Below, in pieces: positions 21,062 to 22,497 of a stretch of DNA of 64,000 nt; positions within the stretch are counted from its first letter, which is position 1; every line of letters starts with the position of its first letter. Origin of the DNA: Fibrobacter sp. UWR3 (GTDB lineage: Bacteria; Fibrobacterota; Fibrobacteria; Fibrobacterales; Fibrobacteraceae); assembly GCF_900143055.1 (NCBI RefSeq), contig NZ_FRCW01000001.1, positions 186,001-250,000 on the forward strand, read 5' to 3'. A program made the position numbers and the translations under genes. The notes below the pieces were generated by a model. It was not told where the DNA came from. It made no database searches and saw only the letters and a list, made by a program, of their open reading frames with translations.

Positions 21062-21877
21062 TTAATTCTGTTGGCGGTGGGCGTCCTGTTCGAAAATCGT
21101 CTTGATGTATGCCTGCACCTGCTTGACGGAGAGAGGGGTGTTGCCGCTTTCGAATGTTGCGATGAGGTTCTTGCCGAGGATGTATCCGCTTGCGGCGTAT
21201 CGGGAGATTTTCTGCACGGCGTTTTCGGTGTAGTCCGGGTCGCCCATCAGGCCGAAGTGCTCCCAGATGATTTCTTCGCGGGAGCTGGGGCGCAGGCAGG
21301 TGAAATCGGGGTAGAGCGTGCCCCAGCCCTTAATGCTTGCGGGGAATTCGTAGCGGAAGGGGATGCCTGCGCGATTGAGCGCGTCCGCGATGATGACTTC
21401 GGATTTTGAGCGGACGCGCACGCCCGTGCATGTGAAGAATTCGGGGGCGTTGATTTCGAAGGGCTTGCCGGTGTAGGGGAGGTGCTGCCATGCAGCGATG
21501 AAATCCTCGTCGGGCTCGCGCACGGGCGTCACAAGGGGGCGGCGGCCGGGGTGTAGCCCCGTGAACGCGGTGTCGATTTCTTCGGGATGGTAATTCTCCG
21601 TCAGGTTGTTGAGCGCGATGATTTGCCTGCCGATGATGCTTGCAACAGCCGCGTTGTAATCGCGTTGCGCGATTGCCGCCGCCCTGCGTCGTTCCTTGCG
21701 GGGGAGGTATTTTCCGTTAGAGTTGCTGCCTTTGTCTACGAGATAGTATTGCGACCGGTCATGGTTGGTTATGACTCGCAATCTTCCTGTGGGTTGCTTT
21801 CCCTTGGGGAGTTTAGCCTTCAGTGCGATCAGTTGCTGAATCCGCTCGTTGGCGATTTGAATGAGTTGGTCTGCCAT
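21062..21877 (-). CDS. PD-(D/E)XK-like nuclease domain protein
   Basis: This 271-residue protein has a charged helical N-terminal half and a C-terminal nuclease-like core: RSKSEVIIADALNRAGIPF (Glu160), LYPDFTC (Asp191) and IIWEHFG (Glu206) give the E...PD...E order of very-short-patch and Holliday-junction-type folds. I chose the ATG at 21877 because AAAGGAACGG lies just upstream; the longer reading from 21940 would start inside a terminator hairpin. It may be phage cargo or a host defence gene. Target and partner are unknown. Confidence 0.68.
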   Translation of the reverse strand: MADQLIQIANERIQQLIALKAKLPKGKQPTGRLRVITNHDRSQYYLVDKGSNSNGKYLPRKERRRAAAIAQRDYNAAVASIIGRQIIALNNLTENYHPEEIDTAFTGLHPGRRPLVTPVREPDEDFIAAWQHLPYTGKPFEINAPEFFTCTGVRVRSKSEVIIADALNRAGIPFRYEFPASIKGWGTLYPDFTCLRPSSREEIIWEHFGLMGDPDYTENAVQKISRYAASGYILGKNLIATFESGNTPLSVKQVQAYIKTIFEQDAHRQQN

Positions 21878-21901: not shown

Positions 21902-21945
21902 AAAAAAGCGCTGATACGCCGTTTTAACGGACAATATCAACGCTT
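21902..21945 (-). terminator. Terminator-like hairpin in the nuclease gene leader
   Basis: On the minus strand AAGCGTTGATA (21945-21935) pairs with TATCAGCGCTT (21916-21906), 11 pairs with one G-T, and is followed by a short T run. The apex can form a second stem, CCGTT with AACGG. It ends about 25 bases before the nuclease start, so it is either a terminator for upstream minus-strand transcription or an attenuator for the nuclease operon. Confidence 0.55.
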
Positions 21946-22050
21946 ATGTGTTCATAATATACAAAGTGTGTGGCAAAAAAACAAGTTGATGCTTTAGGCG
22001 GCAGTTGGATAGCATTTTTTTTGACTTTTGAACGTCTGTTTTGTGGGGGC

Positions 22051-22090
22051 TTACATACCAAAGACGTAAATAGTGGTGGTTGGTATGTAA
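22051..22090. repeat. Dyad unit 1 of 3
   Basis: TTACATACCAA (22051-22061) and TTGGTATGTAA (22080-22090) are perfect 11-bp inverted copies separated by 18 bases. The whole 40-bp geometry recurs twice downstream. Confidence 0.8.
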
Positions 22091-22186
22091 AAAAGGTTGC
22101 GAAAGAGCGAAAAGTGTCCCAAATGCGGTCGCGGATGACGAAATTAGGGTAATTTTTGCTTAGTTTGTCTGTGTTTTGGCTGTTTT

Positions 22187-22226
22187 TTACATACTAAAAC
22201 ATTGCTTCGGGAAAATTGGTATGTAA
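22187..22226. repeat. Dyad unit 2 of 3
   Basis: TTACATACTAA (22187-22197) and TTGGTATGTAA (22216-22226) are separated by 18 bases, as in units 1 and 3. The single mismatch between the arms becomes a U-G pair in plus-strand RNA. Confidence 0.8.
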
Positions 22227-22249
22227 GGTCTGTGAATGCTGATTACGGA

Positions 22250-22289
22250 TTGCATACTAATTGAACTTTTTTGGTGTTTTAGTATGTAA
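22250..22289. repeat. Dyad unit 3 of 3
   Basis: TTGCATACTAA (22250-22260) and TTAGTATGTAA (22279-22289) are again separated by 18 bases. The single mismatch is a G-U pair in plus-strand RNA. The unit lies 25 bp before the decayed moxR end. Confidence 0.8.
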
Positions 22290-22314: not shown

Positions 22315-22488
22315 ACGGCTTCTCCGAGGCTTGCGGGCGTTATTTTGCAGCCTATAGGCGGTTTTCCGCAGGCCGTCGCCATGGAAGTGCTCCGCCACCG
22401 CATTATCCTGAGCTACGAGGCCGAAGCGGAAGAAGTCTCCGCCGAGACCGTCGTGCAGAAGATTCTGGATTCTGTTGAGGTTCCGTAG
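22315..22488 (+). pseudogene. Remnant of the 3' end of a MoxR-family AAA ATPase gene
   Basis: In one plus frame the translation ends QAVAMEVLRHRIILSYEAEAE, then EVSAETVVQKILDSVEVP and a TAG at 22486. VLRHR(I/L)xLSYEAEAE is the hallmark C-terminal segment of MoxR ATPases. Upstream in frame is TASPR, also a MoxR phrase, but only about 14 residues separate it from the C-terminal motif where about 24 are normal, and a TAG lies just before it (22312). No ATPase core is present. It is a truncated, internally deleted scar and not a gene. Confidence 0.62.
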
Positions 22489-22497
22489 TGAGCTGGA

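Follow-up and report, generated by a model that had tools for sequence, protein, structure and literature searches.

Helically phased palindromes beside a PD-(D/E)XK-type nuclease gene in Fibrobacter: most likely docking sites for the encoded protein

REP and REPIN elements are dispersed intergenic inverted repeats that co-evolve with an enzyme, the RAYT (TnpA-REP), whose gene is flanked by its own elements. In these REPtrons, the RAYT is an HUH enzyme that acts on single-stranded, GTAG-tagged hairpins (PMC3116915, PMC8266576). In TIGR arrays, two repeats of 8-12 nt alternate, the guide spacers are 9 nt long, and a Nop-domain protein is required (PMC12045711). The ends of Mu and Tn7 carry several protein sites at fixed spacing, and free-standing homing endonucleases are stand-alone nucleases with their own site specificity, patchy occurrence and multiple copies. 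The TnsA protein of Tn7 is also a PD-(D/E)XK nuclease.

Here, we describe a locus of Fibrobacter sp. UWR3, analysed in a stretch of 64,000 nucleotides (the window), that resembles each of these systems in part. It shares with REP/RAYT the dispersed intergenic inverted repeats, the cognate enzyme gene flanked by its own elements and the co-evolution of site and enzyme. Unlike a RAYT, its protein carries a PD-(D/E)XK-type domain and not an HUH (Y1 transposase) domain; no HUH-family match was found for the nuclease family in Pfam, NCBIfam or PADLOC. The arms of its repeats have no GTAG tag and no strand bias, its arrays contain several helically phased units, and these units number tens per genome as compared to hundreds. 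The system follows a logic like that of REP/RAYT without belonging to that class. As in TIGR-Tas, the array adjoins an effector gene, and the repeats are uniform at any one locus but vary from locus to locus. The spacers, however, are 17-18 bp inside units and 12-108 bp between them and decay without replacement, and the nuclease family has no Pfam match to the Nop domain. As at the Mu and Tn7 ends, several sites at fixed spacing would build a synaptic complex, but the module has no DDE transposase, no two-ended element or target duplication was found, and the arms of every unit form a symmetric pair. In contrast to homing endonuclease loci, the site array stays beside the gene and also stands alone at many unrelated loci. 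A search of the open-access literature, with subscription journals and preprints outside its scope and priority uncertain to that extent, yielded no description of such a nuclease/array system.

The array and the adjoining nuclease gene

The features of the locus are as follows, in window coordinates.

21062..21877, minus strand: candidate cognate nuclease gene, 271 aa; ATG at 21877, 173 bp from unit 1, with an upstream TTG at 21940 as a possible start
21638..21877, minus strand: N-terminal ~80 residues, modelled as a helix, three strands and a long helix; putative site-recognition domain, based on arm/domain co-variation
21675..21690, minus strand: end of DNA identity to the allied nuclease genes L081, L117, L131 and L076, whose first ~67 codons and array differ jointly
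21077..21436, minus strand: C-terminal PD-(D/E)XK-type nuclease domain (RSKSE...YPDF...WEHFG; PADLOC PDC-S68 C-terminal match, E 6.6e-24)
22051..22090, no strand: unit 1, TTACATACCAA-N18-TTGGTATGTAA
22187..22226, no strand: unit 2, TTACATACTAA-N18-TTGGTATGTAA; starts 136 bp (13 helical turns) after the start of unit 1
22250..22289, no strand: unit 3, TTGCATACTAA-N18-TTAGTATGTAA; starts 63 bp (6 helical turns) after the start of unit 2
22371..22490, plus strand: 120-bp copy (91%) of the moxR 3' end, bordering the array directly on the right; intact moxR lies at C1:167325-168308, ~40 kb leftward

The three 40-bp inverted-repeat units lie within 240 bp, each with 11-bp arms at an exact 29-bp offset and an 18-bp inner spacer. 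A sequence-only reading of this DNA had reported the positions, sequences and offsets of these arms, and all six were confirmed. With at most one mismatch, the consensus TTRCATACYAA matched the 64-kb window eight times versus 1.6 expected, a count reached in 0 of 100 shuffles; the six exact matches are all arms of the three units. A scan for sigma-70-like promoters at the array and a search of Rfam with it gave no match. An imperfect hairpin, AAGCGCTGATA...TATCAACGCTT, occurs at 21907-21947, between the array and the nuclease start codon, and is a possible leader or attenuator. In UBA7003, the nuclease module is placed between moxR and the copy of the moxR 3' end.

By its match to an accepted family in PADLOC, the gene product is predicted to be a PD-(D/E)XK-type nuclease. 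The C-terminal domains of PDC-S68 were matched by all 20 members of the nuclease family tested, and HEAT_CxxC_PDDEXK by 5. The catalytic candidates are E160 and E206, which are invariant, and D191, which is nearly so; no lysine is apparent at the canonical ExK position (WEHFG). The window nuclease and its homologues fell into no Pfam or NCBIfam family, and PDB sequences yielded nothing useful. An AP2/integrase-type DNA-binding fold, a three-stranded sheet plus a helix, was considered for the N-terminal domain, whose model shows helix, three strands and helix (mean pLDDT 82). Fold searches with the whole model and with the N-terminal model returned nothing significant, the top rows being coiled-coil look-alikes such as prefoldin (Z <8).

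Arrays, arm sequences and helical phasing across nuclease lineages

Homologues of the window nuclease are present in 27 of 41 Fibrobacter genomes, at 1-7 copies each. An array precedes 43 of 50 homologous Fibrobacter genes at an array score of at least 49, as compared to maxima of 41 at control loci and 42 at shuffled loci; scores of at least 50 were obtained at 28 of 30 nuclease loci. At one locus (L242), the units lie downstream of the gene. Comparison of these loci indicates that the window array belongs with the adjoining nuclease gene. UBA7003 (L080) has the window array and a nuclease 97% identical to that of the window. The arm types upstream of the Fibrobacter homologues include TTACATACTAA, GGGCGTATAAA, GTACCTATAAA, ATGCATATAAA, TTACGGACTAA, ATGCTACCAAA, ATAGGACTAAA and others, at a constant offset of 28-29 bp. 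The sequence-only reading had proposed that arms varying in relatives without pairing or without the fixed offset would speak against it; the sequences do change, yet the inverted symmetry and the offset are kept. The gap class, 136/63 or 84/84/84, goes with the nuclease lineage. The second nuclease of UWR3 (contig C4) has a six-unit array (L258, 5068-5573) with near-identical tandem copies of ~201 bp (gaps 64/137/64/137/64), a case of recent growth by tandem duplication.

By these comparisons, the arm sequence is private to each gene lineage and tracks the N-terminal domain. Specifically, arm distance correlated with N-domain distance when the nuclease domain was controlled for (partial Mantel r = 0.37, P<0.0005; 0 of 2000 permutations), while the correlation with nuclease-domain distance given the N-domain was r = 0.13. 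In the window protein, the variable N-terminal segment reads GRLRVITNHDRSQYYLV...NGKYLPRKE...AQRDYN. TNH or RNH in this domain pairs with TTACATAC arms, RCR or KCK with GTACCT (including one gene just 33% identical), HKNSFQYY with GGGCGTATAAA, and RRGNQFYGYH with ATGCTAC. In the four allied genes listed above, DNA identity to the window gene ends ~67 codons past the start, and the N-terminal codons change jointly with the array.

Unit gaps range from 53 to 148 bp. For 80 pooled gaps between neighbours, each distinct gap pattern entering once, a period of 10.50 bp fitted best, with a mean vector R of 0.93; none of 5000 uniform random sets approached this value (99.9% bound, 0.37). Gaps in Lachnospiraceae cluster at 53 and 64 bp, with a period of 10.55. 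Within units, the offsets were 29 (101 units), 28 (53), 30 (5) and 27 (3). Such exact 10.5-bp phasing of units in two phyla will be unexpected to specialists.

Dispersed arrays, a proposed mechanism and its alternatives

Arrays with the window arms occur at three further places in the UWR3 genome: C9:140977-141215, where the unit-start distances of 136 and 63 bp recur, C5:13826-14063 (135, 62) and C9:92882-93068. The first of these sits between cysS and an MBL-fold gene. In four relatives (G050, G049, G046 and G005), the gene pair is kept with a short spacer and no array, and among 30 homologous MBL loci that of UWR3 is the only one with units. The support for an insertion at C9:140977 is this absence in relatives, whose intergenic DNA is diverged. 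The second UWR3 nuclease (arms ATAGGACTAAA) has solo arrays of its own type on contig C2; thus, both nucleases of this genome have them.

Solo arrays also follow the resident nuclease in other genomes. As predicted beforehand, GTACCTATA arrays were found in G019, G052 and G053 (17, 15 and 23 units), all three of which have a GTACCT-type nuclease; there were 4 units in G006, 1 in G017 and 0 in the other 36 of the 41 genomes (Fisher P = 0.0009). Arrays of TTACATAC type were present in six of six genomes with a TTACATAC-type nuclease and in 3 of 35 others; for those not adjoining a nuclease, the counts were 4 of 6 versus 3 of 35 (P = 0.0045). Reversed-pattern controls gave zero. Exceptions were G019, G044 and G053, which have TTACATAC arrays and no detected nuclease of this type, and G020 and G046, which have the nuclease and no exact solo array; many of the sampled genomes are metagenome bins. 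Dispersed intergenic copies that match the resident enzyme's own sites are likewise a hallmark of REPtrons.

Within a genome, comparison shows solo arrays to be diverged copies of one another. Those of G006 align in both orientations, at 66-77% over as much as 333 bp. In RGIG9997, likeness is 87% over 335 bp and stops ~20 bp beyond the terminal units, and one array of G053 is a partial copy of another. The stretch shared by copies is the array and up to about 20-35 bp. In three arrays orthologous between G006 and G019, identity was 95-98% in the arms, 67-79% in the inner spacers and 56-66% in the inter-unit DNA; because the loci were located by their exact arms, these figures retain some ascertainment bias. 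Neither a target-site duplication nor a sharp element end was found around the arrays, and ~1 Mb compared between G053 and G019 contained no homologous empty locus that would give a clean empty site of a GTACCTATA array. Solo arrays lie between convergent, divergent and tandem genes in 16, 12 and 11 cases, without orientation preference, and 1 of 40 overlaps an ORF of at least 150 aa. The sequence-only reading had also offered the promoter control region of the nuclease operon as an explanation. Its link to the gene at the left was in the right direction; the array is not simply the nuclease promoter, because like arrays stand alone at many intergenic places in all three gene settings.

The three palindromes are most likely docking sites for the DNA-cutting protein encoded next door. 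We propose that together they are an array at which the adjoining nuclease binds double-stranded DNA, and in which one N-terminal domain would read each ~11-bp arm and the inverted arms of one unit would take a dimer. Unit spacing by whole turns would align several dimers along the same face of the DNA, in a multi-site nucleoprotein complex resembling a transpososome or repressor loop. Gene and array would form a module whose site sequence diversifies along with the recognition domain, and the same-arm arrays scattered genome-wide would be short non-autonomous elements. The array-assembled nuclease may cut at or near arrays, and repair would then copy an array elsewhere. Arm conservation would follow if bindable arrays alone spread, or if binding is otherwise kept. 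Because the dispersed copies are related and match the resident nuclease, nuclease-driven mobilisation would be the most economical cause of their dispersal. We assign a probability of about 0.6 to this reading, in which a nuclease is bound to double-stranded sites of its own that disperse, with REP/RAYT-like logic and an unrelated enzyme.

The sequence-only reading had observed that the arm differences are wobble-compatible in plus-strand RNA only, and took this as a hint of folded RNA or single-stranded DNA. Each unit is, in form, an inverted repeat with an 18-nt loop, and the observation holds for the three window units. It does not extend to the family: across 169 distinct TTACATAC-type units, the count of wobble-compatible asymmetries was 41 for plus-strand RNA and 41 for minus-strand RNA, with 82 compatible in neither, so that there is no strand preference and half cannot pair either way. 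At arm position 9, C or T is largely independent between the two sides, with C on both in 11 units. Pairing-neutral asymmetries and near-independence at this position fit protein contacts on each arm separately and not a stem. Given also the 10.5-bp phasing and the empty Rfam result, action of the arrays as hairpins is very improbable, and the RNA hairpin reading was rejected on the strand-neutral asymmetries and the lack of an Rfam match. The same reading had listed sites for a multimeric DNA-binding protein as an alternative, which our comparisons favour in direction; overall, its interpretation is partly supported. A chance close to nil is left for a reading in which the units mark the right end of a Mu-like prophage and bind its transposase. 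Mu ends do bear several transposase sites, and a prophage lies immediately leftward, its structural genes (Mu portal, terminase, sheath, baseplate) filling the left 20 kb of the window. This prophage of ~34 kb (C1:~171942-205942, ending at window ~19,942) interrupts a host gene that is uninterrupted at L081, where identity extends up to C1:171942 and starts again at C1:205943, with GTCGC(T) as the 5-6 bp target duplication. The empty allele puts the prophage end 2.1 kb left of the array. The left part of the prophage contains no units, and UBA7003 has the array without the prophage. The L081 empty site and the missing left-end units refute the prophage-end reading.

Arm conservation bears on two further readings. 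The arrays might serve the host as binding sites kept for chromosome structure, insulation or regulation by a domesticated architectural or regulatory factor. Orthologous solo arrays that keep arms and geometry while spacers decay are what this predicts, helical phasing suits stable looping complexes, and the arrays avoid genes; long-term arm conservation could thus reflect host use rather than selfishness. We nevertheless consider a host-serving factor unlikely in view of the patchy presence, the private arm code of each lineage, the presence of as many as 12 copies of the gene in a genome, the lack of gene-orientation preference and the conserved nuclease motif residues. Alternatively, the protein would be a toxin or defence nuclease restrained by the arrays, inactive when bound and released to cut by array loss or DNA invasion. 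Its nuclease domain resembles the C-terminal domain of the candidate defence proteins PDC-S68 and HEAT_CxxC_PDDEXK, and conserved arrays would be expected were their loss costly. No antitoxin-like partner was identified, however, the solo arrays look like spreading copies, and IMG/VR viral contigs gave no match, which makes such restraint improbable.

Occurrence in Lachnospiraceae and other taxa

Nuclease homologues are present in 25 of 60 Lachnospiraceae genomes, with 12 copies in one. At least three phased units stand upstream at 14 of the 40 Lachnospiraceae loci with enough sequence and downstream at six of all Lachnospiraceae loci examined, as compared to none of the shuffles. The nuclease arrays of G102 and G117 have arms of the type TACGTATMA; this pattern forms 32 and 17 units in the two genomes and 0 in 18 other Lachnospiraceae. 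By these comparisons, the system evidently extends over no fewer than two phyla, Fibrobacterota and Bacillota. In other taxa, singletons of the pattern are about as frequent as chance predicts (an estimate of ~75 for this pattern and collection). The IMG/VR viral contigs contain 29 such singletons and no match to a nuclease relative. Phages gave three weak matches only, and in plasmids the match is limited to the C-terminal domain, in ATPase-like proteins.

The system connects an unnamed nuclease family of the sampled Fibrobacter and Lachnospiraceae genomes with a class of dispersed DNA sites, and has the appearance of a novel selfish or genome-shaping DNA system. Slightly short of even odds, in our estimation, is the broader proposal of a new bacterial class of this kind, in which one nuclease with a modular, fast-diversifying recognition domain would assemble on helically phased palindrome arrays and spread them through genomes with no known transposase involved, in Fibrobacterota and Bacillota at the least. 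Its dozens of natural protein/site pairs offer ready-made material for deciphering a DNA-recognition code, and with this system one can ask whether short DNA elements can be spread by a nuclease on its own.

The uncultured Dorea CAMBRQ01 (L042, L046, L061, L093, L105, L146 and others) contains many TTACATAC palindromes at an offset of 30-31 bp and a unit spacing of ~75 bp. No nuclease homologue was found in this genome, and the palindromes may belong to this system, with a gene that has diverged or is missing. Finally, three contigs of G102 (C64, C89 and C104) carry arrays of exact 53-bp period with spacers that resemble each other inside a locus but change from one locus to the next, a pattern that suggests homogenisation inside arrays.
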